Below are positions 12,389-31,710 of a stretch of 64,000 bases of DNA, in pieces (within the stretch, counting starts at the first letter, position 1; every line of letters starts with the position of its first letter). The stretch is taken from assembly GCA_907163375.1 (NCBI GenBank), contig CAJQUW010008917.1, positions 19,741 to 83,740 on the forward strand. The letters run 5' to 3'. The notes beneath the pieces are model-generated. The model worked only from the letters and a program-made list of their open reading frames with translations, was not told where the DNA came from and made no database searches. The position numbers and the translations under genes are program-made. This stretch comes from Prostheceraeus crozeri (Eukaryota > Platyhelminthes > Polycladida > Euryleptidae).

Positions 12389-12395
12389 GATGACG

Positions 12396-12638: not shown

Positions 12639-12652
12639 AATTTTAATTCACG

Positions 12653-12877: not shown

Positions 12878-12887
12878 TCAACTTGTT

Positions 12888-13781: not shown

Positions 13782-13831
13782 CATTCAAGTAAGTCAGTAT
13801 GAAAGCAAAGATAATATGAAATAAAAATCTA

Positions 13832-14287: not shown

Positions 14288-14384
14288 GTTGACTGTGAAT
14301 AATGACTTTGAAATGTTTCCTAATTCTTAAGTATAAACAAGCAACCAATCAGAATGAACAGCCAATGAATGATGAATATGAAAG

Positions 14385-14416
14385 TATATATATGTAAAGT
14401 GACATTCGTGTCATTT
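14385..14416 (+). promoter_or_regulatory. Polymerase promoter: TATATATA and TCATTT initiator
   Basis: TATATATA at 14385-14392 and TCATTTC at 14411-14417, 26 nt apart. It starts the transcript that carries the ATG-intron leader of polymerase B. Confidence 0.75.
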
Positions 14417-14425
14417 CACTCTGTC

Positions 14426-14550
14426 TTTGAGACGTATAAGTGAAGTGTTCTCTAGCGAATTCTGTTATTATTTGAGGCGTACAAGTGAACTGCTCTCTCG
14501 TGAATTCCAAATTTGAGACGTATTATTTGAGTGAAGTCTCTATCTTGTTG
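14426..14550 (+). repeat. Imperfect repeats in the polymerase 5' leader
   Basis: Three diverged units of about 40-45 bp begin TTTGAGACGTATAAGTG, TTTGAGGCGTACAAGTG and TTTGAGACGTATTATTTG; the first two share a following CTCT..GAATTC. They lie between the initiator and the start codon. Function unknown; they could be repeated protein- or RNA-binding sites. Confidence 0.65.
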
Positions 14551-14581
14551 AAGTATCAACCTTAAACTTGATTTCGTTGAA

Positions 14582-14771
14582 ATGGTAAGTTGAAAATTTC
14601 TTCACTCATCTCCCTCAAACGTGTGGCTAATAGCATCTTCCTCAATTTCAGGCATCAACTTCATCACCAACGCCCTCCCTTCTCGAGGAAAGTTTAGAGC
14701 TGTTGAGTCAAGGTAGGTTGTAACAATGCACTGAGACTTGAATAGAGATGATAGAATGATTTCTCTTTTAG
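14582..14771 (+). other. Polymerase leader: start-codon exon, two short introns, exon 2
   Basis: ATG at 14582-14584 is followed at once by a donor, GTAAGT. Intron 1 is 14585-14651 (67 bp, acceptor CAATTTCAG). Exon 2 is 14652-14712 and encodes a Ser/Thr/Pro start. Intron 2 is 14713-14771 (59 bp, GTAGGT...TTTTAG). Joining these exons by consensus lands one base out of the polymerase frame, so either a splice site is misjudged or a small indel lies at 14772-14815. Confidence 0.6.
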
Positions 14772-14814
14772 ATGATGTGAGTTCCAGCTCAGGACTCTCG
14801 CGACAAGGCAACGA

Positions 14815-17800
14815 GTGGGATGTGCCGACTGCGGACATATGTTTACAAGGAAGCACAGTCTCCTTCGACACATCAAACAACGTGTGTGTCAACGCAAAGC
14901 GGCGTCAATCTCCGGAGGTGAAGTTGATTCTGACGATGACATCTCCTTTCCTTGCGATTTGTGCCCTCTTTCTTTTGATAGTCACTTTCAGCGATCTTCG
15001 CACAGATTTCAACACACGCATGCAAATGATCACTACACCAACGGTACCTCTACCATCTCCCTCATTAATGTTTCACATAATAATTTAGTACGCGACTACT
15101 GCATGGAGTCCAATACTCAAATAGTAGATTTTCCTGAGTGGCTCCTTCAAAATTCTAACATTATCGAAGCGCTCTTCAACAATTTAGACAATTTTAGAAT
15201 GAAGGCACTCATCTACCTTAAACTAAAATATATTAAAATAGATTTTCAAACGGGTCAAGTGACGGAGAGAATACAGTTTCATGTTCCTTCCTCTTCCGCA
15301 ACCGAAGTTGTAGACTGCGAGTCTTGGCTAAATTTTCACATTCAATGTTTAAAATCAAGTGTAGATAAATTCAATCAACGCGACAGCGCTCTCATTTTTG
15401 ATGGTGTGGACTCAGCCATATTCAAAACTTCTCTATTAGAAAGTCATGCAGCTCGAGGCACATTTAAACTACCAAAAACGTTGTATAATAAGAAAGCTGT
15501 CATCAATGTCGATTGTAAATCGCAGTGTTTCAAATATGCAGTCCTATCCATCCTTCACTATAATGATATCAACGCGCATCGAGATCGCACCTATAGCTAT
15601 AGACAGTGGGAGGATGAACTAGACTTTGAAGGTTGTGATAGCAACAACATGAAAATCAAAGATGTAGAAACGTTCGAAAAACATAATAAGATTAAAATTG
15701 TAGTTCACGTGTGGGAGAAGGGGTTGAAGGGTGCCCGCTATAATTCACGTTCAACTTGTTATGAACGTGTAGTCAACCTCTTATTAGTAAAACAAGATCA
15801 TAGCGAGGAATGGCACTACTGTGGTATTCCCAAAATCTCTCGCTTGTACACTCACTTAGGGCACTCTAAAAGAGGTGAACATTTTGTATGCGACCGCTGC
15901 ATCCGCTCCTTTTGGAGTAAAGATAAATTTGAAACTCACTATGAATGGTGCAAGCGAGGTAAATTACAAATGGAACGCATGCCCAAAGATAAAATATTTT
16001 CACATAGGGATAATGGTGACGAATTAAGTCACCTGCGTGCCATTTACGCAGACATAGAATGCTACATTGATGATATCATCCACAAGCCAGCAGCCATATC
16101 CTGCTATGAAGTATGGCATGACCACTTTAGAAATAGGCAAAACAAAATGCATACTTGGCGAGGTGAAGATTGTATTTCAAAATTACTAGAATTTCACGAT
16201 AAAGCTGCTAAATTTCAACAATCATATGATTCCCAATTGCAGCGTAAGTCACTACATATGTCAGATGAAGACAAACAAAAATTTGAAAGTTGCACATCGT
16301 GCCCTAAATGTCATAAAACGTTTGATGACGATAAAATTAAGAAAGTGCGTGATCATGATCACATCACTGGTAAATTTAGAAACGCACTCTGCTCCAAATG
16401 TAACTTTGCACTTAGGTTGAGACGTCGTGTACTACCCGTCATTTTTCATAACTTTAAGGGCTATGACAGTCATATGCTCATAAAAGGAGGGTTGAGCCAG
16501 ATGAAATCGTGGCAGTTTAATGTAATAGCGCAAACGAGAGAAAAATTCATGGCAATGACAGCAAAAGTACCAGTAGATAAAACTAAAGAAAATAAGACAG
16601 TCTTCTTCGAAATAAAATTTTTAGATTCATTCCAATTCATGTCAGCGTCACTAGCTTCTCTCGTTCGTAATCTCAAGTTTCTTCCCCATAGTCAAACTTT
16701 GAAGAAACAATATCCAAACTTAACGGATGAAATAATCACTCGCAAAGGAGTCTTTCCCTATGCGTATTTTAGCTCAATGTCCAAACTAAATGAAACAACC
16801 CTTCCTTCCATTGACAAATTCCAAAACGATTTGACGGGTCAAGATTGTCCAGTAGAGGACTATGAACATGCTCAAGAGGCATGGTTACAATTTGATTGTA
16901 AAACGTTTGGCGATTATATGATCGCTTACTTAGAATTAGATGTCATTTTGCTGGCTGATGTCTTTCAGGAATTTCGACGAGTGGCATTAGAAGAAGACAA
17001 ATTAGATCCTGTCCACTTTGGCAGTCTACCAGCCATGTCCTTTAAATCAGCCGTTAAAATGACTGGTGAGACCATCCATCTCTTACAAGACCCCGAGATG
17101 TATAACATATTTGAGCGCGGAATACGCGGTGGTCTCACATTTGTGAATAAACATCACATAAAATCTAAAACGGTAGGTAATGATCATATCCACCTAAAGT
17201 ACTATGACCAAAATAATTTATATGGCAGTTCACTGTCTAAACCACTACCTCACTCCGAGTTTAATTGGTTAAATCAAGATGAGCTTGAGTATTACTCCAA
17301 CCCTTCAAACATTCTGAAGATTCCAGATGAAGGTGATTGGGGATATTATTTTGAAGTGGATTTGATTTATCCAAATAGTATTAAAAATAAAACTGCTGAT
17401 TTCCCACTCGCACCTGAATCTGGTGAAGTGACTGAAGATATGTTTTCACCTTTCATGTCACAATGTCATAATAACTTAACAGAGTATGGACAGCCAAGGT
17501 ACAAACCATGCCGCAAACTTTTGCTCACCCAATATGATAAGAAAAATTATCTCGTACACTTCTGCATACTAAAATTCTATTTAGAAATGGGCATGCTTCT
17601 AAAGTCAGTTCACCGCATTTTCAAATTTAGGCAGAAAGCCTTCCTCAAACCCTACATAGATAGTAACAGTCAAAAACGTGCACTCGCCCAAAATAACTTT
17701 GAAAAAGATTTTTATAAGTATAAGAATAATAGTCTATTTGGTAAGACGATGGAGGATGTTAGAAAACGCATGAACTACAAACTAGTCATTGATGATCAAA

Positions 17801-18555
17801 AATATCACAAATTGACCTCATCACCTCTTTTCATTGATAGAGACATTATCGATGAGAACCTTGTAGGTGTTAAAATGATAAAATCTGAAGTTGAGTTGTG
17901 CAAGCCCATCTATATTGGCCAAGCTGTACTAGATTACTCTAAACTTGAAATGTACCAACTCTTTTATAAAATACTAAAACCATGTCCTCTCGTAAAAGAG
18001 GTTCGCTTGCTGGGTGGTGATGCAGATAGTTTCTTTTTAGGAATTACCACTCAAAAAGATTTAAATTTTAATGAAGTAGGTAAGTCATTAGAAAAATATT
18101 TCGACACATCTAACTACAATCCCACTCATCCACTCTATTCCATACAGAATAAAGCCAAACTTGGTTGTTTTAAGGATGAAACAGCAGGAAAGGAAATAGA
18201 TGAAATGATTCTCCTCCGTCCTAAAATGTATTCCATGAAATTAAAAGAATGTGCAGATAGTATTAAGCGTGCTAAAGGTATATCAAAATCCATTGTTCAC
18301 AAAATGAAACATCGGTCCTATAAGAAGGCCTATAAAAATAAAACTATAACGTTTGTCAATATGACAATCTTAAAATCTCAAGTTCATACTGTGAAAACGC
18401 ACACGTTCAAGAAACGAGCGCTTTCAGCATGGGAGGATAAGAGGTGTTGGATAGGACATAACACATCTCTTCCACATGGACATCCTGACACAAACATACC
18501 TCCACCCAAAAGAATAACACTCACGCTACCACATTCAGGAGACGTCTTAGCATAA
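14815..18555 (+). CDS. POLB: Maverick DNA polymerase B (protein-primed type)
   Basis: This replicates the element's linear DNA, by family knowledge using a terminal protein primer. The open frame is 1246 codons without a stop. An N-terminal C2H2-like finger (CADCGHMFTRKHSLLRH) is near residues 3-20 and a second CDLC finger near 47. The exonuclease motifs are ADIE (D413, E415), NFKGYD, and YLELDVILLADVF. An endonuclease-VII-like Cys/His insert (CPKCH...RDHDHITGKFR...CSKCN) sits near 495-530. The polymerase motifs are YDQNNLYGSSLSKPLP (A), YKNNSLFGKT (B) and GGDADS (C, D1069 and D1071). Motif C has Ala where most relatives have Thr; both catalytic Asp remain. The first coding bases are reached through upstream exons and the true N-terminus is uncertain. 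This is the best-preserved large gene of the element. Confidence 0.95.
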   Translation: MGCADCGHMFTRKHSLLRHIKQRVCQRKAASISGGEVDSDDDISFPCDLCPLSFDSHFQRSSHRFQHTHANDHYTNGTSTISLINVSHNNLVRDYCMESNTQIVDFPEWLLQNSNIIEALFNNLDNFRMKALIYLKLKYIKIDFQTGQVTERIQFHVPSSSATEVVDCESWLNFHIQCLKSSVDKFNQRDSALIFDGVDSAIFKTSLLESHAARGTFKLPKTLYNKKAVINVDCKSQCFKYAVLSILHYNDINAHRDRTYSYRQWEDELDFEGCDSNNMKIKDVETFEKHNKIKIVVHVWEKGLKGARYNSRSTCYERVVNLLLVKQDHSEEWHYCGIPKISRLYTHLGHSKRGEHFVCDRCIRSFWSKDKFETHYEWCKRGKLQMERMPKDKIFSHRDNGDELSHLRAIYADIECYIDDIIHKPAAISCYEVWHDHFRNRQNKMHTWRGEDCISKLLEFHDKAAKFQQSYDSQLQRKSLHMSDEDKQKFESCTSCPKCHKTFDDDKIKKVRDHDHITGKFRNALCSKCNFALRLRRRVLPVIFHNFKGYDSHMLIKGGLSQMKSWQFNVIAQTREKFMAMTAKVPVDKTKENKTVFFEIKFLDSFQFMSASLASLVRNLKFLPHSQTLKKQYPNLTDEIITRKGVFPYAYFSSMSKLNETTLPSIDKFQNDLTGQDCPVEDYEHAQEAWLQFDCKTFGDYMIAYLELDVILLADVFQEFRRVALEEDKLDPVHFGSLPAMSFKSAVKMTGETIHLLQDPEMYNIFERGIRGGLTFVNKHHIKSKTVGNDHIHLKYYDQNNLYGSSLSKPLPHSEFNWLNQDELEYYSNPSNILKIPDEGDWGYYFEVDLIYPNSIKNKTADFPLAPESGEVTEDMFSPFMSQCHNNLTEYGQPRYKPCRKLLLTQYDKKNYLVHFCILKFYLEMGMLLKSVHRIFKFRQKAFLKPYIDSNSQKRALAQNNFEKDFYKYKNNSLFGKTMEDVRKRMNYKLVIDDQKYHKLTSSPLFIDRDIIDENLVGVKMIKSEVELCKPIYIGQAVLDYSKLEMYQLFYKILKPCPLVKEVRLLGGDADSFFLGITTQKDLNFNEVGKSLEKYFDTSNYNPTHPLYSIQNKAKLGCFKDETAGKEIDEMILLRPKMYSMKLKECADSIKRAKGISKSIVHKMKHRSYKKAYKNKTITFVNMTILKSQVHTVKTHTFKKRALSAWEDKRCWIGHNTSLPHGHPDTNIPPPKRITLTLPHSGDVLA

Positions 18556-18705
18556 TCAACTTTAATTCAGTATTTTGACGTTGCTTTTTGTAGATATACA
18601 TGGTTGTTTTATGTATCGCATGAGATCGTTTCTTCCTTGTGAATATATGCCTACAGTCAGCCCATTCCCCCTATATCTGTGAAAAGACTTTTTCATACAC
18701 ATATT

Positions 18706-18719
18706 TTTATTTCAATAAA
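18706..18719. terminator. Convergent poly(A) signals
   Basis: AATAAA on the plus strand at 18714-18719 serves polymerase B. TTTATT at 18706-18711 is AATAAA on the minus strand and serves the structural gene ending at 18763. The two signals are almost adjacent, so the converging transcripts overlap at their ends. Confidence 0.75.
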
Positions 18720-18762
18720 ATTTTACAATGACTTCACTTTGTTTTCCGAAACACTAAAGTTA

Positions 18763-20253
18763 CTAGGATTTAGTATCTTTCACATGGATACACTCATGTA
18801 GACCATTTGTAATTTTGATAGAAATAGAGGGTATAGTTTGTTTGATAACAGGATGGTAGAAAATAGGTTGAAACATCTTCTCGACTATTCCATATGAAGC
18901 GTCTTTATCATGAATGAAATCACGTAAAATGTATTCTTTTTTCTCACCAACAGAAATAGGTAGAATCAAATCACTTTGAATGTAAAGGTGTTGTTCATGT
19001 TTATCAAGTGTCATTGGTGTTTCTATACCAATCGTATGCGCACCAGTAAACACGGTTTGTAGCATTGAAAAACCAAAGAGTTTTTTCAAATTTTTACTCA
19101 ATTGACATTGAATGTCATCACCCAGTTTCAGAACAACGCGTTGATTTTCAATTGAAAACGATATGTGGTGTGTCTTTACATCATATTTACTTTTCATCAC
19201 ATGCTTCAACTTCTGTTGTATATAAGGATTTACTACATGAATGAAGCTTTAAACTGTATGATATAGACGCGGCATTATATTGATAGCAACTTTAGATTCC
19301 TCATAAGACTGGTAAATTTTCTTGATGCGATCACCATAGATGTCCACCCACCATTCATCATTAACTGAATCAGCTTTAGTGTGATATTCATGAGAAGCAT
19401 ACACCACACCGCTTCCAATAATAGGTGTATAATTTCTTACAAAATGACGCAAGGTTGGAGAGAAATAAACTGTAAGTTTGTCATTATATTTCTGAATGAC
19501 CAACTTATTTTTGTCCGCCATAATTTTCTCTCCATACTTCTTACCCACAGTCTCATTCCATCGTTTTACTAACTCAATAAGTGATAAAGGTTGAACATCA
19601 CGCTTTTTCAAAATGATGCGTTCTTCACATTCTACAACATCTTCATCAAATATTTTAAATTTATAATGAAATTTATTGATTCGATTTGAATAAACTTTTC
19701 TAACATTTGCAGTAGCAATTGACGTTAGATGTAGTCCATGGCCAAAACCGAGATGCGGATAGAATTCATTATCCAACCTCAGTGTGAGACCTTTAGCAGA
19801 AGAATGAAAGCGAAGGAACTGTCTTCCACTCCAATGATAGATAGTAAACTCATAAACTTTCTGATCCTTATTCTTCATGATGGAAGTATTACCACTGTTG
19901 AATGCCTTAATAATTTTCTCATCCCCAAATGGACCATAATAATCTGATTTTATCTGAATCCATTCATAGTTCCACTTTCCATCTGACGCTAGATTGTATG
20001 GGAACTGGAATGCATTAATCATCGTTATTCCATCATGGGTGCGAGGAGTCAATATCATTTCTTCCAAATCATTCACATTCTGAATATTGCTATCATAGCA
20101 AATACTAGAAACGCCAACCTCCCATTCACCTTCTAAATGTAGTGAGCGATTTAATTCTACTCGATAGTCTGATGGTTTATTTTTGGGAAATTTATTCATG
20201 GAAGCATTACTGGGCAAGTAGATTAGAAACGAGTCCTTATTTTCACTTTCCAT
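18763..20253 (-). pseudogene. Maverick structural protein, copy A (minor capsid/penton candidate)
   Basis: This is a widespread Maverick family whose N-terminus reads like SFLIYLPSNASMNKFPKN and then LEGEWEVGVSSI. The C-terminal half carries the YIQSDLILPISVGEKKEYILR segment typical of the family. I believe it is the minor (single jelly-roll) capsid or penton protein, but the name is from family memory, not shown here. The start at 20253 (MESENK) is preferred over the upstream ATG at 20283. The frame is open for about 335 codons, then has an in-frame TAA at 19249-19251, then continues in the same frame to 18763. The paralogue copy B lies directly upstream and has a stop at the corresponding place. 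Confidence 0.75.
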
Positions 20254-20292
20254 ATTATTCACATTGGAAAAATATATTAGCATACGTTTGCA

Positions 20293-21690
20293 TTAACTCT
20301 TCATTCGGAAATGGAGTGTGATACTTGTCACAGCATCTTTGTGAAAAGGAATCAACGCACCAGCATCGTCATAAATTGCAATACCAATTTGTGGGATGTA
20401 GTTTGATTTCAGCTTTGTATAATGCACTTTCTTGAAAGTATGCTCAGATATAATACTGCAGCTTTTTGGCTGGTATGGTATCATTGCTAGCAATGGAGCT
20501 TCAACATCTCCCACACGTACATCTTCACCAATATTGGAATATATCTGAAAATAGTTAATACGACGCGATAGTGACATGTCTGCGCTAGCTTTGGTTACAG
20601 TACCACTTTTAAAGATATTTTGATCAAAAACCAAAATGTCCATTAGAGTTTTATCCATAATTAGTTCAATACCTTTTCCACTTATAGTGAGAGACAAAGT
20701 ACCTTCTTTTTCAGAAAATGAAATATGTTGCTCATTAATCACTTCATTTAAATAATCTACAACCAATTAAACTGAAGTAATAATGCGAGGCATCAACACT
20801 CTTGTTTCATGTAAGATACCACCTAAAGGCTCTACACACTTTCTGTATAAAGATACGGTCCATTCTGTATCAAATTGATTTGACCTTTCACATGGTAAAT
20901 GTTGCATATCAGATTTTCCATGAACAGCTGCAGAACGATGTCGTAAGAACTGATGAAACTCTTTTGAACAAACTAATACTAGATCATCATCATTTAATTT
21001 ACTTATTGCAATATGATTAGATGATTTGATATAAGTCAATGTTGCCACTTGTTTACCATCAACTCGAAGGAGATAATTAAATTTCTTCAATAATGTTTCA
21101 GGAGTCATGTTTGTCTTTCTTGGCTTAATCACAATCTTCTTCACCAACGTCTTCTCATTTTTTGGAATAAGATCTACATAATAAGCTTCCTCTCGATATA
21201 TTAACTGTTTATGACCACTTGGGTGGTAAATAACGTTATAATTATCATAGCTTGTTAAGGCGCTAGCGGGGTAACCTAAATCATTTCTTAAACTTGGACT
21301 TAAACCAACAATCCAATCTTTCTCAACTACATGATGTACATAATTATGATCATCATTGTGCGGAGTAAATTGGAAAATATGTTAACACGCTTTATTCAAG
21401 AAATCATATATAAACTTTTTACATGATAAGAGATCTTTCTTTGGCCACTGTGGAATGTATACTCGACAGCCCTTTTCACATTGGTAAGCAGCTGTGCGTC
21501 TCATATTAATAGTCATCACCTCATGATCAAAAGTATAGACACAGTTGCTATGAACAAGTCAAGTGACACCCACTTCCCACTTTCCATTTAGCTGCTGTGC
21601 ATGATCAATGGGAGTAGAAAAGAGTGCGGCTCGATTACTAGCAAATCTCTTTGTAGCCGCATTCCTAAGCAAAATATGATAAAACGACAT
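20293..21690 (-). pseudogene. Maverick structural protein, copy B (paralogue of copy A)
   Basis: The frame starts with MSFYHILLRNAATKRF and then LNGKWEVGV, the same N-terminal pattern as copy A. It ends with VRVGDVEAPLLAMIPYQP and a C-terminal ITLHFRMK typical of the family. The whole 465-codon frame is kept with no frameshift, but has three in-frame stops: TGA at 21559-21561, TAA at 21382-21384 and TAA at 20767-20769. The last falls at the position homologous to the single stop of copy A. The copies are strongly diverged, so the duplication is old. It ends 40 nt before copy A begins. Confidence 0.72.
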
Positions 21691-21725
21691 TTTGATATTG
21701 CTGATCTGCGGCTTTGCATAACTTC

Positions 21726-22082
21726 ATGAAGACTTGGATTTTGGACTCTCTACAATATATCAGAGTTGATCTTGATGGAAACGTACATTTCAAAAATTCT
21801 CATGGTAATACTGCAAGAGGTATTACATTAACATGGCGACAATTTGTCAACCTCAATGATATCATGAGGGATTTGGAATATTTTGAAACATTAAGATTCA
21901 TCTCCTTGGGTGATCAAGTTTGCCTTCAACATTACAGAAATGAAATTCAAATCTACCATTCTCATTCCGCAAACTGTTTCTCATTTCGCAAATACAATTG
22001 GGAGAAGTATAGAAGATACATACATCGCTCCATCATGACATTTATTCGTCGTGAGTTCATCACCCTACTATGCAAATCTTAA
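21726..22082 (+). CDS. PC4-like small protein 1, 118 aa
   Basis: The ATG at 21726 lies 35 bp from the divergent start of structural copy B. The protein has two halves that each look like four beta strands and a helix: the first contains NVHFKNSHGN followed by RGITLTWRQF, like the RKGISLT-x-x-x-W core of the PC4/p15 transcription coactivator fold. The second has LGDQVCLQ and EIQIYHS with a Trp-containing helix. PC4 proteins bind single-stranded or melted promoter DNA. It is a clear paralogue of the next gene. The PC4 link is inferred from pattern only. Confidence 0.6.
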   Translation: MKTWILDSLQYIRVDLDGNVHFKNSHGNTARGITLTWRQFVNLNDIMRDLEYFETLRFISLGDQVCLQHYRNEIQIYHSHSANCFSFRKYNWEKYRRYIHRSIMTFIRREFITLLCKS

Positions 22083-22104
22083 TCAGACATGACTACCACG
22101 CACC

Positions 22105-22443
22105 ATGAGTTGGAAATTAGATTCCCTACAACGTATTGAAATGGATCATGATCGAAACGTCTATTTCAAAGATTCAACTGGAAATGTGAGAAGAGAGTTT
22201 GCTTTATCTTATCGTCATTTTCAATCTCTACATCATATCATGAAGGATTTGAAATACTTCTATATGAAAAGACATTCACGTATTGGAAATCGCATCTGGT
22301 TGCGCGTCAACAAACGGCGAATTCAACTCTATCATTCCCAACTCCATACTAACTTCACATTTCATCAAGGTAGTTGGGAAAGTATAAAAGGAAGGTACAT
22401 CGCTCAATTTACTCATTTTTTCATCATGAAGCGTCATCGCTAG
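22105..22443 (+). CDS. PC4-like small protein 2, 112 aa
   Basis: It is a tandem paralogue of the previous gene, sharing LDSLQ-x-I, the NVYFKDSTGN strand, the IM-x-DLKYF helix and a second half IQLYHS...WES. It starts 22 bp after gene 1 ends. It finishes with TAG at 22441-22443, and the TBP-like frame continues immediately after that codon in the same phase, so a fusion split by a stop, or readthrough/reinitiation, is possible. Confidence 0.6.
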   Translation: MSWKLDSLQRIEMDHDRNVYFKDSTGNVRREFALSYRHFQSLHHIMKDLKYFYMKRHSRIGNRIWLRVNKRRIQLYHSQLHTNFTFHQGSWESIKGRYIAQFTHFFIMKRHR

Positions 22444-22972
22444 ACCATCGTCAACATTCTCCGTCGCTTCAGACTCTACACTAAAATCGATCTCACAACA
22501 TTACACCAACACCTTCCAAACAGCAAGTATTACCCGGACCGTCCTCCAATGTTAGTGGTGAAGATGAACAATTCACGGAATCTTCAACTCTTCCCAAATG
22601 GGACTGTACAGATTCTCGGCGCCCTTTCTCATTCATCGGCGCAGTCAATGCGCTTAGAGCTACAGAGACTACTACGTCGGATATGGAAGAGGGAGAGGTG
22701 TGTGATGTCGAATCTGACTGTGGACAATATGGTGATCTCTACTCAATTGAGTGAAAGTGTATCATTTTTGAAGATTCGTACCAGCAGTTACAATTTGTGT
22801 TATGAACCCCAACTTTTTTCCTGCAGCTCTCATTAGTTGTTGGTTACCTGTGCATGTTGCAATCTTTCATAATAGTAAAGTGATCATTACTGGACTAAAA
22901 TCTCATGTACAAGCAAATGTGATCCTAGACTATCTCATCGTGTATGTACGTACCCAGCGGATTGTAAAATAA
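22444..22972 (+). pseudogene. TATA-binding-protein-like gene, frameshifted
   Basis: The reading frame directly after the TAG at 22441 shows both halves of the TBP saddle. Repeat 1 has RRFRLYTKIDLTTL, PNSKYYPDRPPMLVVKM and LFPNGTVQILGA, matching the TBP pattern of N-x-x-Y-x-P-x-x-F and F-x-x-G-K-x-x-x-TGA. Repeat 2 has DNMVISTQL, then YEPQLF, and, after a one-base frameshift near 22815, a VAIFHNSKVIITGLKS strand. YEPELFPGL is one of the most conserved TBP stretches. The first ATG in frame is at 22549, inside repeat 1, so the normal start is unclear. The final TAA (22970-22972) is inside an AATAAA. TBP homologues are known in some large DNA viruses; I do not recall one in a Maverick. It may bind the element's own uniform TATA boxes. 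Confidence 0.75.
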
Positions 22973-23003
22973 AAAACAATTTTTCCAACATGATGTTTTT
23001 ATT
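22968..23003. terminator. Convergent poly(A) signals containing both stop codons
   Basis: The plus-strand AATAAA (22968-22973) contains the TAA of the TBP-like gene. The minus-strand AATAAA (TTTATT at 22998-23003) contains the TAA of the protease (22999-23001). Both 3' untranslated regions are therefore minimal, which is an economical viral-style arrangement. Confidence 0.75.
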
Positions 23004-23460
23004 TCAAATCATGATAGAACTTACAAATCATTTTTTCATTAGATGACGGATTACATGAAAAGTTTTGAATAACAGATACAAATCGAGATACATGTAAACG
23101 TTTTAAGATGAAGTATAGTACAAAAGCACCACACGTTGATGAAAGTGGATGTTGTAGTATGCGTTCATTTCGCTGATATTGACGCGTATGTTTTCTCAAC
23201 CACTGCTGCGTGGGCATATTTGGAGGTTGAGCAAGAGAGTCAAATAGTTCACCACGTCGGTCTTCTCCAATAAAGATCGCTTTCCAATGCTCACCGCCTA
23301 AATTCTGCGAATGAGTCTTTAGCACAATAAAGATGGGATAGTGATTTACTGCAGGTGGTAAGGTATCGAGCGAATAGACATTATCGAAAGCTTTCAACGT
23401 CGCTTCATCTGCATTACGCTGTACTTTAGTTTTAATATCGTCAGCAGTCAACCAACTCAT
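22999..23460 (-). CDS. PRO: Adenain-like cysteine protease, 153 aa
   Basis: This is the maturation protease that cleaves capsid and core precursors in Mavericks and adenoviruses. The catalytic set is visible: His58 in GGEHW, Asp74 in ELFDSLA, Gln103 in ILQHPLSSTC and nucleophile Cys110 in STCGAF. Adenovirus uses Glu at the acidic position; Asp is common elsewhere in the clan. The frame is intact. The ATG overlaps the capsid gene's stop by one base (TAATG), and the stop lies in the poly(A) signal. It is the last gene of the minus-strand block. Confidence 0.92.
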   Translation of the reverse strand: MSWLTADDIKTKVQRNADEATLKAFDNVYSLDTLPPAVNHYPIFIVLKTHSQNLGGEHWKAIFIGEDRRGELFDSLAQPPNMPTQQWLRKHTRQYQRNERILQHPLSSTCGAFVLYFILKRLHVSRFVSVIQNFSCNPSSNEKMICKFYHDLK

Positions 23461-24744
23461 TAACGATTATACTGAAGAATCACGTCACGATACTTTGTAA
23501 TTTCAATATTTGAATCGAAGACTGCATAAATTAATACATTGATCGTCTCAGGTAGTGTTCTTTTGAACGTCAAATCCAAACGAATATTATGAGGCACGTT
23601 CGCTTGACGATAGGGTGCACTAATATCGCTGTCAGCAGTCAAATCAAATGCATAAATAGTATATCCACTCTTAAACTCTTTCATAGTCAGTCCGTTGGTG
23701 TCATCCGTATTGTAAAAGCCAAAGACATCCATAAAATCAACATAACTGCGCATAAATTAATCCGCAGCAAAATCTGGTTTGTAGGGTGGACCAGGATGAC
23801 TCACACCATTTACACGTAAAGCAATTTCACTTAACTGATTGTGTTTAAAATTGAAAGGATTCTTCTTTATATTTCCATTAAATGCATCATTTTCAACCAT
23901 TGCCACCATGAGGAGCTTCGGTGCTTCCGATGGAAAGAGGCCATCTTTCATGAAACTCTTTTTGATCTTTCGGAATTGTAAAGGTGAGAAGCTTTGTGTG
24001 CTGAACGGGGTAAATGGCATTTTGGCGGTTAAGACCTTCAGTATGTCCTCTAATGACACTTGGATTCGGTACTACTCGACGAATGTAAAGTGCAATATCT
24101 TCCACATGAATTCTACTTGTAAAATTGTCAACTTTAGCAAATGCATTCAGCGCAAATTCAGGCTTATTCAATGTCAGCTTGAGTCGCATGCTGGTATTAC
24201 AGAGTAAAAACTTTGACTGTCTAAAGAAGTCTAAATTCAGTGGACCATATAGCTGACATACTTTACTATCTTTAATCATAGCAGATCGCTTTACAAAGCC
24301 ACTGTTTGTTTCAGCATCAAATTTTCCTGCTTCATCTCTGTACCATCCCATGGCTTCCATATGACTTTTTTGTGCTGCTGGATGAAACTGTGATACATGA
24401 TTGAAATATGATTTATAGGGATAATCGCTTTGGCCACCTTCCACCTGCTGCTCTCCAATCGTTAGAGAAACATCGCGAAGTAATGTAGTCAATGGTAAAT
24501 TGTTCAGTCCAACTTTATGTGTATCGTCAATAGCAGTTCCATCTGCTTACTGAATTCTAAACCTCAAATCAACCATCGCATAACTCAAATCTATGTAGTC
24601 ATCACTACCACCAGGAATAACAAATTCAATGGGGCCAGCATTCTCAGCTGTTCGAGGATGATAATCTACAATACTTGAACTAAGAATATCTGTCTGTATG
24701 GCTTGTTGATCAAACAAACAAAAACCGGAAGTTTTACACTCCAT
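23460..24744 (-). pseudogene. MCP: Major capsid protein, double jelly-roll (F54H12.2-like), broken
   Basis: The family is the animal F54H12.2-like protein, which I take to be the Maverick major capsid protein. N-terminal SSSIVDYHPRTAENAGPIEF and IPGGSDDYIDLSYA are visible. The middle has YPYKSYFNHVSQF and AAQKSHMEAMGWYRDEAGKFD. The C-terminal part has NDAFNGNIKKNPFNF and GYTIYAFDLTAD. The gene carries an in-frame TAA at 24547-24549, a one-base frameshift in an A-run near 23960, and another in-frame TAA at 23757-23759. All flanking residues fit the family, so the breaks are recent. Its ATG is 2 nt after the upstream gene's stop and its stop overlaps the protease ATG. Confidence 0.85.
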
Positions 24745-24746
24745 GA

Positions 24747-25202
24747 TTAGAAGTTATGGCAGCGTCGTCGTTTAGCGCCTGATGAATGATTAGAGCCTCT
24801 GCGACGTTTGCGTGAATGCCTTTTGACTGAAGATCGCACCTTACCAGCTCCGCGATGTTTCCTTCTTCCTTTATTCATTCGTTTAGGTGATTTCTTTCCT
24901 TGAGTAACACCAGCAAAGGTCTGCTTCAATGTTTTTAAACCGCGTTCCTTCCCACGATTCAACAAACTGCTCTTAAAACTTCTACCTCTGGAAAGATCAC
25001 TAGCAACATCACCAGCAAAGCCAACGGCATTACTTAAAACATTTCGTTTTAAAGATCTTCCGACATTGGATATGAGAGGTGCTACAACAGATTTCAGTGC
25101 ACCAAGTATGCTACCTCCACGTTGGCGGCGAGCGCCGCTGTAAATTTGTCCTCCACTACTTACATAGGAGGGTCGTGAATAAAATGAGGCAGTTGGATTC
25201 AT
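24747..25202 (-). CDS. Basic virion-like protein with membrane-active style N-terminus, 151 aa
   Basis: A protein type common in Mavericks next to the capsid gene. It has a Gly-rich N-terminus (RRQRGGSILGALKSVVAPLI) predicted as an amphipathic helix, a central NAVGFAGDVASDLSRGRSF segment and an extremely Lys/Arg-rich tail ending KRRRCHNF. It resembles adenovirus minor core or cement proteins (pVI/pX-like) in composition; a role in DNA packing or membrane disruption is inference. The frame is intact. It lies 41 nt after the integrase stop and 2 nt before the capsid ATG. Confidence 0.75.
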   Translation of the reverse strand: MNPTASFYSRPSYVSSGGQIYSGARRQRGGSILGALKSVVAPLISNVGRSLKRNVLSNAVGFAGDVASDLSRGRSFKSSLLNRGKERGLKTLKQTFAGVTQGKKSPKRMNKGRRKHRGAGKVRSSVKRHSRKRRRGSNHSSGAKRRRCHNF

Positions 25203-25243
25203 AGCTCAAACCCTAAACATTGTTAGTTACAACTTTGCATGAA

Positions 25244-26331
25244 TCACTGTCGATCACTTAGATGAAAGATGTCGGCACGACGCATCCAAGAGTTCATACT
25301 TGAAGGATAACCAGTCCATTTAACAAGACACCATTCTTCACCTTGTCGTTTTTTACATCGAATGATTTTCTCTACCAAATATGTTTCACTTTCAGTGACT
25401 ACCTCAATCTCATCGCGGTAAAAGCTACCCTCAATTTCTTCATTATCGTAATCTTTCAACTTGTAGGTGGTAGGAGAGTCTTTTTCATCAATCCTTGATA
25501 CTGTAAATACCTCCTCTGTCCAATTCGGAAGGTACCTTTAGCAAAAACACTCTTCACTTTTGAGATACGAACTTTATCACCAATTTTCACATCACTTTTC
25601 ACATGAGTGCGTTTACGTTGGAATGATTCGCGCACTTTATCTACATTGTCAGCATTTACATCTACTGGTCTGAGTCCAATAGAACGATGGATAGAGTGAT
25701 TGTAGACATGGAGTGCATCTTGTAGAACCTTTGTCCAATTTTGTGTCAAGTTGGCAGTAAAATGTCGCCACAAGCGATTTTTTAATGTGCGATTAAAACG
25801 TTCAACGAGTGCAGCTTTATAAGCACTCTTTACACTAAACAACTCAATGTCATGCCTCTCAAATAATCTTCTCACATGCTGATTTTCAAACTCTTTTCCT
25901 TGATCACTCTGAATTCGTTTTGGAATGCGACCTTCTCGAAAAATTGTTTGGAATGCTTTTGCTACTCCTTTCCCTTCTTTAGCTTTTAAAGGTTGAGCCC
26001 ACGCATAACGCGAGAAAATATCAATGACGGTTAAAATAAAATTATTGCCGGAGTTATGTTTTGAAATGGAGGCAACATCACACAAATCTGCTTGCCGCTG
26101 TTCATCGATGTCATGAACAATATAATGGCGGGTGCGGTACTTCTTTTTCGCTTGTTTGTGGAGTGTATAGGTAGCCTGAACCTTTAACCATCGTTTCACT
26201 TGTGATTGTGGAAGACCACTCCCTTTTGATAATTTCTTGATAGATGCAAATCCTGCCGGATGTTTTACATCATAATAGATTGACTTCAAACGCTCAGTCG
26301 ATGACGACTGACTCTTTTTCCTCCTTCTCAT
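25244..26331 (-). pseudogene. INT: Maverick integrase with chromodomain, frameshifted
   Basis: This is the DDE integrase that joins the element ends to host DNA. The start is probably the Met at 26331 (MRRRKKSQ), with an in-frame ATG possible at 26463. IYYDVKHPAGF and a helix-turn-helix-like segment come first, then the core with Asp in QADLCD, Asp in IQSDQGKEF and Glu in ALVERFNRTLKNRLW. A basic SH3-like stretch (IGDKVRISKVKSVF) follows. A one-base frameshift near 25530-25540 separates this from the C-terminal chromodomain (YLVEKIIRCKKRQGEEW, VKWTGYPSSMNSW), which lacks its own ATG. The chromodomain suggests targeting to marked chromatin. The catalytic core remains readable but the full-length protein is not. 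Confidence 0.9.
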
Positions 26332-26509
26332 CTTTTTGCTTTCTTGCCTTTCTACATTTACAACAACTACAGTATTTAGCTTTAGCGGTTTTGCGATCGT
26401 GTTCACATTGCTTAGGAGTTTCATTGTGAGAGCTGGCGCAGCAAGTGCAAGTGACAACGACATTCACCTCTGGCGGCTCATTACATGGTAAGCAACACAT
26501 CTGCTTCAT
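26294..26509 (-). CDS. Small Cys-rich protein overlapping the integrase start, 71 aa
   Basis: It has a dozen Cys in about 50 residues (MCCLPC, CTCCASS, YCSCCKCRK) followed by a charged tail. That is a likely metal-binding module; family unknown. The ATG is one base after the upstream gene's stop, matching the tight junctions through the rest of this block, which argues that it is a real gene although it overlaps the integrase N-terminus in another frame. Confidence 0.5.
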   Translation of the reverse strand: MKQMCCLPCNEPPEVNVVVTCTCCASSHNETPKQCEHDRKTAKAKYCSCCKCRKARKQKDEKEEKESVVID

Positions 26510-26510
26510 A

Positions 26511-27202
26511 TTAATAGTCTGAGAACATGTATTTCTTGGGAGGAGCTGTTTTACGTTTTCCTTTTACTAGTTTTAGTGGTGGTGTAGATCTACGTCGAGT
26601 TCTTCCTCTTGTTTGCTTAGTGAGTGTGGGAGGGGATGTAGCAGGTGACGTCTTCAACCAATTTGTTGGCATTTTCATCGTCTGAAGCATTGGAGCAGTA
26701 GCCACTGTTGAATCAAGTTCTTTCAATGTCTCATTATTCAAAGCAAATTTTGGTACATTATGTTTTTCAATAGTTTAAGAAAGTATGTCCAACCAGGTGG
26801 AACATGGCCCTGACGGCGCTTTCTACGTGTCGCATACTGAATCAAGTCTTCATAATGTGAAGCATCAATCACTTCATTTTCATCTGTAATGATTTCTCCT
26901 CTATCATTTACATTGAGATGGGGTTCAATACTATTGAAAAGAGATATGGCATGTGCGCGAGATGCTAAAGGTGTAGCAGTCGATAAAGAGTCACGCATCT
27001 TATTCTTCAAATTTTTCAATTGCTCAACAGTTTCCGATTGTAATAATACAGCACGATGTGGATCTTTGATGTGAACATTTTGCTGATAATCTATTTCTTT
27101 CCTATACATTTGATTTGCAAGAGGTTGCTTTACTTGCTGCATGGCAGTCAATTGTACATATTCATCCTGAGGAATAACAATCATGCGATAATAAGAACTC
27201 AT
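26511..27202 (-). pseudogene. Conserved Maverick protein of unknown role, frameshifted
   Basis: The N-terminal part (MIVIPQDEYVQLTAMQQ, a central coiled-coil-like region, ASHYEDLIQYATRRKRRQ, PPGWTYFLKLLK) matches a protein I recall in many animal Mavericks between ATPase and integrase; its function is not established. A one-base shift near 26765 throws the frame, and the rest (TLKELDSTVATAP to a basic Pro-rich tail) continues in the next frame without a start codon. Its ATG overlaps the ATPase stop as ATGA. Confidence 0.7.
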
Positions 27203-27817
27203 AGTTTGTAGATAATCATGGGAGTTTTCAAAATATCACTTCGAAATCTAAATTCTTCCGGACACTCTTGCGGAAAGTCAATGAATAAGTAGCCGTGTGG
27301 TTTTTCAGTAGCTGCTTGAAAAATTTCAATTAAGGCTTTTGATCCTCTTGGTGCAACTTGTCGCGCTAAAATTTCAAATTGACTTTTATCTCGCGGATTC
27401 TTGAAAATAGCATAATAGTGTGTATTCAGGGTTTCGTGTACGAGCTTCTTTTCCATCAGGAAACAAATTTTGTGTGATATAGATGATAAAGCACCTTTTA
27501 TGATGTGCTGCGCGAGTGAACATATCTGTGACATCTTTGGAATTCTTACTTTCTTTTAATAAATCATCCAATACAACAACATCATTAGACTGAAGTTTAT
27601 CCACTGCAATAATTCCTTCATGTCGAATAAAGTTGCGACTTTGCAATTCCTGAAACAGCGACGGTTGATAAATACCATAACACCAAATCACTCGATTGAT
27701 AGGTTCCTTAAACAACTCCCTTCTTTTATCCAATAAATTCAGCGTGAAAACAGTTTTACCTGCATGAGATGGACCTGATACAGTCAGAACTTTATCACAT
27801 TGAAGTCTGAAATCCAT
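27199..27817 (-). pseudogene. ATP: FtsK/HerA-type genome-packaging ATPase, frameshifted
   Basis: It drives DNA into the capsid in Mavericks and related viruses. The start is set at 27817 (MDFRLQCD), because the longer frame begins with a non-ATG codon. Walker A is GPSHAGKT (residues 15-22) and Walker B VVVLDD (80-85); a YITQNLF segment corresponds to sensor motifs. A one-base frameshift near 27440 moves the C-terminal third (HYYAIFKNPRDKSQFE) into another frame with a stop at 27199. The conserved motifs all precede the shift. Confidence 0.9.
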
Positions 27818-27848
27818 TATAATACTTTGAGATTCAACATTTGCATAA

Positions 27849-28214
27849 TTAACGTCTAGAGCCAAAGATATTACCCAATACGTTGCCCACGATAGGAGCT
27901 AGCATCGGTAGTAACGCTGGAAGGAGACCACCCTTTTGTGTTAGAGTTTCCCTCTTTCTTTGAAGGGTGACTTTAGGATTGGAGATGAAACGCAATTTCG
28001 TAGCATATCGCTTAAGTAACTTTCGTTGTTTTGGTGCTAATTTCTTCGTCCTCAACTTTCTCACATGAGAAATAATTTCACGAATGAATTTATCGTTAGC
28101 ATGTCGTATAGCATTGTATCGCTGATTTGCTTTCATTCGTCGGAGAGCTTGAATGGCTGAAGAAAACTTTGAAGACTTTTGACTTTTACGTTTCGTCATT
28201 TTACGTTTCGACAT
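27849..28214 (-). CDS. Basic protein with hydrophobic C-terminus, 121 aa
   Basis: It is a common animal Maverick protein. It has a Lys/Arg-rich N-terminal half, then LAPKQRKLLKRYATKLRFI, and a Gly/Leu/Pro hydrophobic tail beginning QKGGLLPALLPMLAPIVG. The tail pattern resembles membrane-active or capsid-bound minor virion proteins. The frame is intact; the start is the first of two close Met codons. It lies between the TM-RING and ATPase genes. Confidence 0.75.
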   Translation of the reverse strand: MSKRKMTKRKSQKSSKFSSAIQALRRMKANQRYNAIRHANDKFIREIISHVRKLRTKKLAPKQRKLLKRYATKLRFISNPKVTLQRKRETLTQKGGLLPALLPMLAPIVGNVLGNIFGSRR

Positions 28215-28264
28215 TTTCCGTGTTAGTCTGCTAAAAACCTGTCTTTACCACATTTGCATAGGTA

Positions 28265-28588
28265 CTAACTATTGCGGCATAAGTGACACTCGAAATGAGC
28301 AATATCACAGTGGTTACATTTGCAAAGTTGAATGCAATTACGTATGAAACAGCGTTGACAAAAAGCATGCTTACATCTCTTGAAGATGCGCTTTTCATTT
28401 CCATCCTTTCGCTTACATACATCGCAACACATAGTTTCACCGTTACTGATGTCTATAGCAAGTCTTTTTGAAGATATGAATTTGCTAGCCTTTTCTAAAT
28501 AATAGACGCATGTACAGAAGGAATATACTTCGAGAGTGAGCAGACATAGCTCGAAAACCAGTTGTGCTACAATCAAGTACCACTGCAT
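28265..28588 (-). CDS. Membrane-anchored RING-like protein, 107 aa
   Basis: A hydrophobic segment at residues 3-30 (LIVAQLVFELCLLTLEVYSF) is followed by a Cys/His cluster: CCDVCKRK, then FKRCKHAFCQRCF, then CKCNHC and CHLC. The spacing fits a RING-type zinc-binding domain, so an E3 ubiquitin ligase at a membrane is likely. It starts 2 nt after the previous gene's TGA. Viral RING proteins often target host defence factors; that role here is only an inference. Confidence 0.65.
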   Translation of the reverse strand: MQWYLIVAQLVFELCLLTLEVYSFCTCVYYLEKASKFISSKRLAIDISNGETMCCDVCKRKDGNEKRIFKRCKHAFCQRCFIRNCIQLCKCNHCDIAHFECHLCRNS

Positions 28589-28590
28589 TT

Positions 28591-29001
28591 TCAATTTTTC
28601 TTTATAGAAAGTTGAATGTGAATATCTGAAATCGCTTCAATCACTAGACTGCTGCCATGATGGTTAAATGCGTTAAGACGTTCAGCAATTTTTATCACAT
28701 GTCTTTTGAAAAATTCTTCGGGGTGATCTACAACTTCCATTGAATAAGAAGCAAAATGGAAAGAGCGACTTTCCACCTCTTCCTTTCCAAAATGACTAAA
28801 CTTAATTTTCGCAACTAATCGCGCCATGACAATGCTATCAGAGAATGTATTCATTAACTCTAGAAATAGAGTGCTAGCATCATCGATCACTGCTTCGATG
28901 TCGGTCTCATCTTTATGAAAATGTATCACATGATCTTGAACAGCTCCTTTTAAACTTTGCCTATGAAAATGTAATGTTCCGCAGTCGTTTGCGAAAGACA
29001 T
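28591..29001 (-). CDS. Conserved Maverick protein, 136 aa
   Basis: It resembles a segment often found in animal Maverick proteins, with a pattern of HVIHFH near the start, HFASYSMEV in the middle and a C-terminal helix then beta strand (RLNAFNHHGSSLVIEAISDIHIQL), where relatives have a GSGW motif followed by a hydrophobic strand. In some relatives this region lies before the polymerase domain; here it is a stand-alone frame far from polymerase B. Function not known. The frame is intact. Confidence 0.6.
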   Translation of the reverse strand: MSFANDCGTLHFHRQSLKGAVQDHVIHFHKDETDIEAVIDDASTLFLELMNTFSDSIVMARLVAKIKFSHFGKEEVESRSFHFASYSMEVVDHPEEFFKRHVIKIAERLNAFNHHGSSLVIEAISDIHIQLSIKKN

Positions 29002-29088
29002 GATCGCCCTTTATCTAACCCATCCATTGCATGAAAACAACAACTCTTCTCATAGTAACATTTATTGAATAACGGTAACAAGCATGCA

Positions 29089-29619
29089 TTATAAATCAAT
29101 GGTTTGAAAGAGATAAAATAGATACAGCTGGTAACTATCATACAGCGAACAATGATGACCATACAGGACTTTGGCAGTGTTGAGGTAAGGAGGAAAGAAG
29201 CATTGGTTATGAACGTAGCTACTACAACGAACAGACAAAATAGGAACAGACAAATCCTTAAAACGTTTCGTGACTTCATGGTAGTGTTGATTCACTCTAC
29301 TATCCCAAGGTGGGAGCAAAATGTCATCAATGATTAGATTGGGAAATACTTTCCTCTCCTTACCAGGATTATTACAAAAGATGCGTATAACATTGAAAGC
29401 AGCTAACCATCGTTTAAAGTCAATAAGAAGAGCACTCTCACAAGAAAAGCCATAGTCTTGCAAATATTTCAGATTAAGTCCATGAATGTGTTTTCTCGCC
29501 CATTGATCAACATTGGGATCGCAGTTGGCATGTTGATGATAGACACTGACAATCTGATATGTCCAATTGTTCATAGCAATAGCACTGAGCTCCTGTACAG
29601 GTTCACCCTCACAATCCAT
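29089..29619 (-). CDS. DEDDh exonuclease-like protein, 176 aa
   Basis: The N-terminus MDCEGEPVQELSAIAM has the D-x-E of exonuclease motif I at the end of a first beta strand, followed by the expected YQIVSVYHQHA strand. Near the C-terminus, GHHCSLYDSYQL fits motif III H-x4-D. The middle contains FCNNPGKE, which could be motif II. This points to a 3'-5' exonuclease of the DEDDh (RNase T/DnaQ) type that could trim DNA ends or RNA. The frame is intact. Assignment is by motif spacing only; the middle Asp is not certain. Confidence 0.55.
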   Translation of the reverse strand: MDCEGEPVQELSAIAMNNWTYQIVSVYHQHANCDPNVDQWARKHIHGLNLKYLQDYGFSCESALLIDFKRWLAAFNVIRIFCNNPGKERKVFPNLIIDDILLPPWDSRVNQHYHEVTKRFKDLSVPILSVRCSSYVHNQCFFPPYLNTAKVLYGHHCSLYDSYQLYLFYLFQTIDL

Positions 29620-29671
29620 AAAAATGATGATAGAAGCCTAAAACGGAAATTTACACATCTAAGGAAACGTT

Positions 29672-29872
29672 CTATAACATATTACAAAATGAAGAATTAC
29701 ATCGATGCTTTTCACGACAAAATACACAAATGATATGATGGCAACGAAGAAGTAAAATGTATCTAATAAGACCACGTCTACGACACTCAAAGCACATAAG
29801 CGAATTGTCATGGGGTAGAGTTAGGAAAGGACTAGTAATTCTCCTTCTTTGATTTGCGTTTTGAGGCAGCAT
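29672..29872 (-). CDS. Small RING-like protein, up to 66 aa
   Basis: The core has MCFECRRRGL, then LLRCHHIICVFC and CNSSFC, a compact C-x2-C/C-H-x3-C-x2-C zinc-binding pattern like a short RING. The start is uncertain: Met at 29872 overlaps the upstream gene by 41 nt, whereas Met at 29797 (just before CFEC) would start 34 nt after that gene's stop. Related in style, but not obviously in sequence, to the TM-RING at 28265. Confidence 0.5.
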   Translation of the reverse strand: MLPQNANQRRRITSPFLTLPHDNSLMCFECRRRGLIRYILLLRCHHIICVFCREKHRCNSSFCNML

Positions 29873-30606
29873 TCTTCTCCGACTTGCGCTTCGTACCACT
29901 GCTGTTAAGGATTTGATCAATTATGTCATCCACGTTGGGTGGTTTTGGAATATATAGGATGGATTCCATATGCAAAGAGAGCGAGGCTATTTTATTATCC
30001 TTGTGCCGACCATAATATAGCCCATTCACTTTGAAAAGGATATCCCAAGTACCTTCTCCGAGCTCGTCGCATGTGATGGGTGTTGAATGATCTCCCTCCT
30101 TCTTATAGTAAGTACACCAATGTGATACCGGTAGGCAAATTTGATTACCATCCCAAATCTTTCTATAGGGAGTATCCTTGTCATCTCTAGCCTTCCACTC
30201 TTGAGCAAGAGGAGTAGGAATGTCCATATTTAATGTCACGTACTCCTCAATAATATCAAGTTGGTGGCGAATGTACGGACTCACGGGGATCAGTATGTAG
30301 TCCCCATACTGATTGCGCATTATCTTGACATCCGTGGAAGGGAGCATTCCCGTTTGGAGTACTACGCTATGATCGTCATAACGCAAGACTTGTTTAAATT
30401 TACGCTGTAGCGGTGTAGGATTATGTACCTTGGTTGTTTCTTCCACTGGCCTCAGTTGTAGATGATCTGATCGTAGCGAACCTTGTAACGTTTGACCGCC
30501 ATTTTGTCCTACTAGTGCAGCAGATGGAGTAGATGCCTGAAAATGAAAAAGATTGTATTAAGTTTACGTTCAAGGGAGGAGAGGGAGGAAAGTAGCGACC
30601 TACCAT
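29832..30606 (-). CDS. First gene of the late block, 235 aa, with intron after ATG
   Basis: The ATG is at 30604-30606 and is followed directly by donor GTAGGT. The intron is 30537-30603 (67 bp, acceptor CATTTTCAG). Exon 2 then stays open to 29832. After a Ser/Gln-rich start, the protein has a middle with LPVSHWCTYYKKEGD and TWDILFKVNGLYYG and a bipartite basic tail (KRKSEKNAASKRKSKKE) that looks like a nuclear localisation signal. Family not recognised; a DNA-binding or regulatory protein is plausible. The intron has the same position and length as intron 1 of polymerase B. Confidence 0.7.
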
Positions 30607-30671
30607 TTTAGTTGGATAATAGAATAGAGAGAGAGAAAATGTGCGTCCGTCACTCGTGCGATTCAACGATA

Positions 30672-30708
30672 GAATGATTCTCACTGTGGAAGGCTCGCTA
30701 TTTATATA
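30672..30708 (-). promoter_or_regulatory. Late-block promoter: TATATAAA and TCATTC initiator
   Basis: On the minus strand, TATATAAA is at 30708-30701 and TCATTC at 30677-30672. It is the only TATA-initiator pair I found for the 7.6-kb minus block down to the protease. Confidence 0.75.
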
Positions 30709-30831
30709 GAAATGCTTGATTCTCATTGGATGATGATCCTCATTGGACAATAACATCAAGCTGATTCCAAATCTGGCCTCCGTTTACCAATCCGAGCCTT
30801 CATTCTCCCGCTGAAGCTTTTTCTTGTGAAA

Positions 30832-30963
30832 TTCTAACTCTGTCGTTTTTCGCCAATCTCCCAAATCTTAAATGGCGTCTCACATCTAAACGAAGACAGA
30901 TATGAACAAGGCGTTTCTTTCAGTGAATTTGTCTCACTCTTAGCTTTCAAACGAGCTATTGCA
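30832..30963 (-). repeat. Fragment of the Maverick 2 subterminal repeat
   Basis: Read on the minus strand, this ~130 bp (AGCTCGTTTGAAAGCTAAGAG and onward to the GACAGAGTTAGAATTT motif) matches the ~325-bp unit at 59177-60720. It lies just inside the right terminal repeat, linking the two Mavericks to one lineage. Confidence 0.85.
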
Positions 30964-31019
30964 CGACTTTCTACGATCACTAGAAGCAAAATTGGAAGTT
31001 TGGTGCCGGGGGGGGAGGT

Positions 31020-31704: not shown

Positions 31705-31710
31705 TCATCG
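31705..31710. repeat. Target-site duplication, right copy (TCATCG)
   Basis: Identical to 8440-8445 and immediately adjacent to the right terminus. Confidence 0.95.

Follow-up and report, generated by a model that had tools for sequence, protein, structure and literature searches.

A Maverick-type element of the flatworm Prostheceraeus crozeri carries a homologue of the TATA-binding protein

Homologues of the TATA-binding protein (TBP) are already known in large DNA viruses, and a locus of Prostheceraeus crozeri raises the question whether a Maverick can carry one as well. If a virus-like transposon of only 23 kb has a conserved TBP, then small elements, too, bring their own promoter-recognition factor, and the protein would offer a way into the question how Maverick genes are activated. 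The whole stretch of DNA analyzed, hereafter the window, is 64,000 nucleotides long and part of one contig of a 2.05 Gb genome. A mitochondrial COX1 frame with 8 internal TGA reads well under the invertebrate code, which points to an animal as host. An earlier note, made from the letters of the window alone, had described a TBP homologue as cargo of a Maverick, lying beside two PC4-like genes in a copy that was broken by a frame shift and had no clear start. The features on which the present analysis is based are collected in Table 1.

Table 1. Features of the element and of the TBP region, in coordinates of the window.
Feature	Position	Strand	Details
Maverick/Polinton-type element	8446..31704	.	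~23.3 kb; inverted terminal arms, 6-bp flanks, integrase PF00665 inside
Left target-site duplication, 6 bp	8440..8445	.	identical bases at 31705-31710
Right target-site duplication, 6 bp	31705..31710	.	identical bases at 8440-8445
Type B DNA polymerase-like frame, 1259 aa	14776..18552	+	motifs by eye
Reading frame with three in-frame stops (161+347+157+204 aa)	18763..21381	-	translation of frames
ORF A, 118 aa, paralogue of ORF B	21726..22082	+	ORF A/ORF B alignment A2
ORF B, second paralogue, broken in the window copy	22105..22443	+	~216 aa in other copies
TATAAAAG, 43 bases upstream of the TBP start codon, within ORF B	22383..22390	+	sequence
Broken copy of the element's TBP gene	22426..22972	+	ATG, stop in frame at 22441-22443, frame shift within repeat 2
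Repeat 1 of TBP with the beginning of repeat 2	22444..22836	+	PF00352 E 7.5e-15
Frame overlapping TBP, part of the ORF B tail, ends ..YSIE	22485..22754	+	translation
Frame carrying the remainder of TBP repeat 2	22772..22972	+	translation
Cysteine protease, C48-like	22999..23466	-	PF02902 just below cut-off
Retroviral-type integrase	25456..26463	-	PF00665 E 9.2e-10 (Pfam)

The TBP gene of the window starts with an ATG at 22426. Other copies have the same opening residues and read through; here the in-frame stop follows directly after the ATG, which is why the frame behind it looks startless. The earlier note was therefore right in calling the copy broken, whereas the start that it missed does exist. 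The 130-aa frame at 22444-22836 scored 55 bits with PF00352 (cut-off 22.9), the match comprising two separate stretches. All peptides quoted in support of a TBP were found again: PNSKYYPDRPPML, LFPNGTVQILGA, DNMVIS and YEPQLF in this frame, and VIITGLKS in the frame at 22772-22972. The peptides of repeat 2 are split over these two frames, which bears out the frame shift proposed for this repeat. The window copy is dead and yields no full protein.

Distinguishing features of Mavericks, or Polintons, are long inverted repeats at the termini, target duplications of 6 bp, an integrase of retroviral type, an adenovirus-type cysteine protease, a double jelly-roll capsid protein and a packaging ATPase. 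Inverted repeats, a 6-bp duplication and an integrase are present around the TBP gene, in agreement with the view that TBP is cargo of a Maverick-type element. The span of the element follows from the identical 6-base duplications that flank both ends. When the protease frame was compared with PF02902 (C48), an E value of 7.8e-4 and 19.8 bits were obtained, just under the curated cut-off of 20.7. The 1259-aa frame gave no polymerase match in Pfam or in the PDB sequence search; motifs picked out by eye suggest a type B DNA polymerase. It contains an Endonuclease VII domain over the Pfam cut-off (PF02945, E 2.7e-6) and an N-terminal C2H2-like finger below the cut-off. No Pfam match over the cut-off was obtained for the frame with three in-frame stops, nor for a capsid protein or a packaging ATPase among the frames tried, and an AAA_22 match at 27389-27898 was weak (E 0.088). 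On account of the inverted repeats, the 6-bp duplication, the integrase, the C48-like protease and the polymerase-like frame, the element was filed as Maverick/Polinton-type. Its inverted terminal repeats (8801-9794 and 31008-31406) hold many nested subrepeats, and the arms inspected contain runs of C or G. Just beyond the element, at 33095-33329, lies a near-perfect 116-base hairpin, possibly a small inverted-repeat transposon.

The abundance of the element was assessed with short words from three of its genes. Exact matches in the genome number 4,723 for a TBP 24-mer and 5,139 for a protease 24-mer. A polymerase 26-mer, allowing at most one mismatch, was found 3,993 times, and each reversed control gave 0 occurrences. 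At 30 of the 39 protease places listed first (counted by eye), the TBP word lies about 750 bases from the protease word, and one of the nine remaining places (C33) shows a TBP protein match. TBP belongs to the element, and the element is hugely amplified, with thousands of copies in the genome. At one site the polymerase word stands three times on one strand at a spacing of 1,393 bases (C302:822000, 823393 and 824786), forming a small tandem array.

Eighteen TBP loci were fetched from the genome. A frame through both repeats is present in 14 of them, which gives no estimate of the intact fraction because the loci were picked mostly for long open frames; three others (L014, L022 and L024) are split, and one (L026) is incomplete close to the C terminus of TBP. 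Uninterrupted relatives over both repeats, which the earlier note had named as support for its claim, are hence found in the same genome. The complete natural copy L025 (181 aa) matched the Pfam TBP family with an E value of 1.2e-20 in two stretches that correspond to both repeats. Compared with PDB sequences, it gave 35 matches at E<=1, 34 of them named TBP, TFIID or a fusion and one given by a locus name only. All 18 members of the TBP alignment (A1) matched PF00352. An AlphaFold2 model of L025 reached a mean pLDDT of 86; residues 119-123 and 129-131 fell under 50, and the stirrup of repeat 2 is of low confidence. Foldseek aligned this model with 44 PDB chains at E<=0.001 (TM 0.73-0.83), at an identity of 20-27% to solved cellular TBPs. 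All 44 are from entries of TBP or of TBP-containing initiation or regulatory complexes, as assigned by entry titles and PDB names, some rows naming the complex alone. The Maverick gene is homologous to TBP over both repeats and its protein consists of the core domain alone, which is predicted from the model to fold as a TBP saddle. The homology first proposed by eye is borne out by Pfam, by the PDB sequence matches and by the AlphaFold2 and Foldseek results. These data, including the 18 of 18 PF00352 matches, contradict a chance or weak resemblance of a protein with another fold; nothing was found in favor of such a resemblance, and we consider it next to impossible.

Residues were tallied in 125 proteins, 121 from public data and four from the genome, at positions set by alignment to a solved cellular TBP alone. 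According to the available passages of one source (PMC12529657), four phenylalanines of cellular TBP intercalate, and acidic residues are critical for TFIIB. By alignment, both TFIIB-facing positions are acidic in 125 of the 125 proteins (122 Glu and 3 Asp at one, 124 Glu and 1 Asp at the other), in an acidic-x-acidic-Leu pattern, as expected of a canonical TBP. Repeat 2 keeps the stirrup Phe, the Pro that follows it and the second Phe (125/125 each). It also keeps the DNA-contact residues Asn (124/125), Val (125/125) and Thr (124/125). Repeat 1 is different. Its stirrup Phe is replaced by Pro in 119 of the 122 proteins with a letter at this position (Q, T and L occur once each), and the position of its Thr is occupied by L, M or F in 125/125. 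Where the alignment shows a letter, 105 of 107 proteins keep the Asn of this repeat and 124 of 124 keep its second Phe. The family has three of the four intercalating Phe of a canonical TBP, and we have therefore filed the protein as TBP-family and not as canonical TBP. The loss of one intercalating Phe and the L, M or F in place of the repeat-1 Thr make canonical TATA binding uncertain. As judged from the aligned residues, the family is asymmetric, with repeat 2 and the TFIIB-facing acidic residues kept and the repeat-1 stirrup altered. It would represent a natural TBP variant that separates the halves of the saddle, the TFIIB side being intact and repeat 1 changed.

The TBP copies of the genome comprise lineage I, which is that of the window, and four further lineages, Ib, II, III and IV, lineage Ib being known from one copy (L050) that is split in repeat 2. 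By eye, the fetched flanks of lineages I, Ib, III and IV hold the window-type protease and neighbour frames, and in the flank of one lineage II copy (L044) the polymerase frame is recognizable by its C-terminal portion. Between I and Ib, dN was 0.07 and dS 0.30 over 108 codons; for II and III, the gene was taken in two parts, with dN/dS of about 0.41/1.08 in one and 0.38/1.42 in the other, and most pairs of I with II-IV were near or at saturation. All these ratios are rough, because an overlapping frame (see below) restrains synonymous sites and decay after insertion adds changes.

Protein searches of public data first yielded 17 relatives at E<=1e-3 and later, with 7,993 candidates scored, 323. 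The best 120 of the 323 all contain PF00352, and those beyond the best 120 may be other TBPs. The 121 public-data relatives listed are known as proteins, on contigs of up to 24.5 kb that may be of Maverick origin. Searches of IMG/VR (with the protein and two alignments), prokaryote genomes, phages and plasmids returned no relatives with genomic context. A tree of 41 rows, from which P0005 and P0018 (<150 aa) were left out, groups lineage I with P0002-P0004 (100/99) and with P0017, a long and unsure row; having a single cellular outgroup on a very long branch, it does not settle the origin of the TBP. Comparison between diverged Maverick lineages indicates that the protein is old and conserved.

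These data also bear on the idea that a host TBP was captured recently and is carried as a passenger without use. The host does possess a TBP of its own elsewhere in the genome (C9306), probably split by introns because a second piece lies about 15 kb off on the same contig, and a second TBP-like gene at C3829:151570-151938 (L028, L035), possibly a TBP-related factor. Recent capture is nevertheless contradicted by the low identity of the Maverick protein to solved cellular TBPs (20-27%), by the far higher score of the host gene (123.7 bits), by a residue signature common to several diverged Maverick lineages and public-data relatives, and by dN being lower than dS between lineages. We regard it as highly improbable.

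Upstream of TBP lie ORFs A and B, which are paralogues (alignment A2) and have relatives in public data. The earlier note had described them as two PC4-like genes; their relatedness to each other was confirmed, but not the PC4 identity. Neither ORF of the window has a PC4 match in Pfam, and the sole Pfam match of ORF B is a weak one to Nudix (E 0.018, below the cut-off). Ten members of the ORF A/B family gave no PC4 match in Pfam and a single weak Nudix match (1/10, E 0.016), and nothing better than E 0.27 was found for the family among PDB sequences. PF02229, searched over a genome with thousands of element copies, gave 5 matches only, and HHalign of the family against host PC4 returned a probability of 0.3%. 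The Pfam, PDB sequence, PF02229 and HHalign results lend no support to PC4 at the level of sequence. One public-data protein (P0019; jgi, lgn, ena), on contigs of up to 12.9 kb, is 99% identical to ORF A, and the same or a near-identical element is therefore present there.

ORF B does not end where TBP begins. In intact copies it continues into TBP, read in frame +2, the overlap being 326 bases long in lineages I and Ib, 338 in II and 305 in III. When TBP codons were resampled synonymously, a frame open over this length was rare (p 0.0002-0.002 per lineage; permutation 0-0.0022). The likeness of the ORF B tails between lineages also exceeded the null expectation, the observed score being reached by 0/500 resamples in four pairs, by 2/500 for I-II and by 9/500 for I-III. 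The +2 frame is free of stops in 25/28 rows of lineage I, 12/15 of II, 1/1 of Ib, 3/4 of III (two rows from the same place) and 0/7 of IV (three rows from the same place), and the +1 frame is open in 0/55; these counts cover fetched copies whose TBP start matches the typed motif, others such as L003 being uncounted. An overlap of ORF B and TBP is thus well supported for lineages I-III, and it is absent in IV. The ORF B tails end acidic and serine-rich, and it is a guess that they might serve as activation tails.

A TATA box is found inside ORF B, ahead of the TBP gene. In one copy per lineage, TATAAA stands at -43 from the start codon of TBP in lineages I, Ib and II, at -46 in III, and is not found in IV; for each of the four lineages that have it, an upstream region would contain TATAAA by chance with a probability of 0.7-2.5%. 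Seven of nine copies inspected have TATAAA before TBP. It is missing in one of the three lineage II copies (L049) and in the lineage IV copy, and a second lineage IV copy lacks it as well. The probability of TAT AAA AGG as the codon choice for Tyr-Lys-Arg is about 0.04, and the box could be kept for the protein because it sits in the codons of a conserved peptide. TATAAAAR is no commoner in the window than by chance (13 found, 10.9 expected), and by eye no TATAAA was seen upstream of ORF A, ORF B, the protease, the putative penton start or the 24747-25205 frame. As a promoter element, the TATA box before TBP is suggestive only.

With the residue signature and the TATA box at hand, a role directed against the host can be weighed. 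The protein would occupy host TATA boxes or titrate TFIIB or TFIIA, damping host transcription or antiviral genes, and would not serve element promoters. A partial mimic of this kind would be expected to keep its TFIIB-facing residues while its repeat-1 DNA contacts are altered, as is the case here. However, 124-125 of the 125 proteins retain the DNA contacts of repeat 2, beyond the needs of a mere decoy, and the TATA box before the TBP gene in lineages I-III points to self-use. Such interference is rather unlikely in our judgement.

We favor, as the probable function of this core-domain TBP homologue, a service to RNA polymerase II transcription from element promoters. The Maverick TBP would bind the AT-rich promoters of the element through its one-sided saddle, would recruit TFIIB and RNA polymerase II of the host while dispensing with its TFIID, and would in this way switch on the genes of the element. 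Its own gene may be among the targets, given the TATA box 43-46 bases before the start in I, Ib, II and III. No TFIIB-like gene was identified among the frames assigned in the element. More tentatively, the one-sided TBP and ORF B as its partner might constitute a minimal, element-specific RNA polymerase II initiation system. The tail of the partner overlaps the first 305-338 bases of TBP, and a TBP promoter (the TATA box) inside the coding sequence of the partner would lock the two genes and their regulation together. The position of the gene in the window, between the polymerase-like frame and the protease and integrase frames, would also suit a TBP fold reused for DNA bending in replication, integration or packaging. 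It is not apparent what replication would gain from a conserved acidic-x-acidic-Leu pattern on the side that faces TFIIB, and we hold such a reuse, in place of transcription, to be improbable.

The element shares inverted repeats, a 6-bp duplication, an integrase, a C48-like protease and a polymerase-like frame with Mavericks/Polintons and polinton-like viruses. TBP is absent from the main texts of eight papers on Mavericks, polinton-like viruses and adintoviruses (PMC8097293, PMC11071308, PMC10120064, PMC4028283, PMC8363768, PMC4642659, PMC7805220 and PMC12220804). In the passages available of one paper that mentions Mavericks, Polintons and a TATA-binding protein together, the cellular TBP is meant, and the accessible parts of two further papers (PMC12085832, PMC11464507) assign TBP to a giant virus and not to a Maverick or polinton. 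We found no report of a TBP in a Maverick in the main texts searched; a report elsewhere is possible.

Cellular TBP (PF00352; PDB 1ytb, 1cdw, 2z8u) has in common with the Maverick protein the two repeats, the predicted saddle fold, the repeat-2 DNA-contact residues and the acidic-x-acidic-Leu facing TFIIB. The Maverick protein differs from it in its 20-27% identity, in consisting of the core domain alone, in being encoded by a mobile element, and in its Pro at the repeat-1 stirrup Phe and L, M or F at the repeat-1 Thr position. A virus-encoded TBP fold is likewise found in large DNA viruses (Heterosigma akashiwo virus 01, Terrestrivirus, CpV-BQ1, phycodnaviruses and, as wsv303, a nimavirus); these TBP-bearing viruses are large, whereas the Maverick element has about 23 kb. 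Among viral models in BFVD, 38 matched at E<=1e-3 with 6-20% identity, seven of them named TBP or TFIID, and the best match so named is the putative TBP of Heterosigma akashiwo virus 01. In the passages available, TBP is listed for nimaviruses (PMC10871703), algal viruses (PMC4602308, PMC12085832) and a megavirus (PMC11464507), and TBPs are given for three plus four families of large dsDNA viruses (PMC11410667). The giant virus CpV-BQ1 encodes both TBP and TFIIB, which are thought to redirect the host RNA polymerase, according to the part of the source at hand (PMC12085832). Akin to the Maverick protein, the herpesvirus TBP mimic ORF24 has a TBP-like domain; it is encoded by KSHV, a DNA virus that relies on host RNA polymerase II, as described in the portion available of PMC12529657. 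ORF24 keeps the four Phe and lacks the acidic TFIIB residues, whereas the Maverick TBP shows the reverse, with three Phe and the acidic residues kept.
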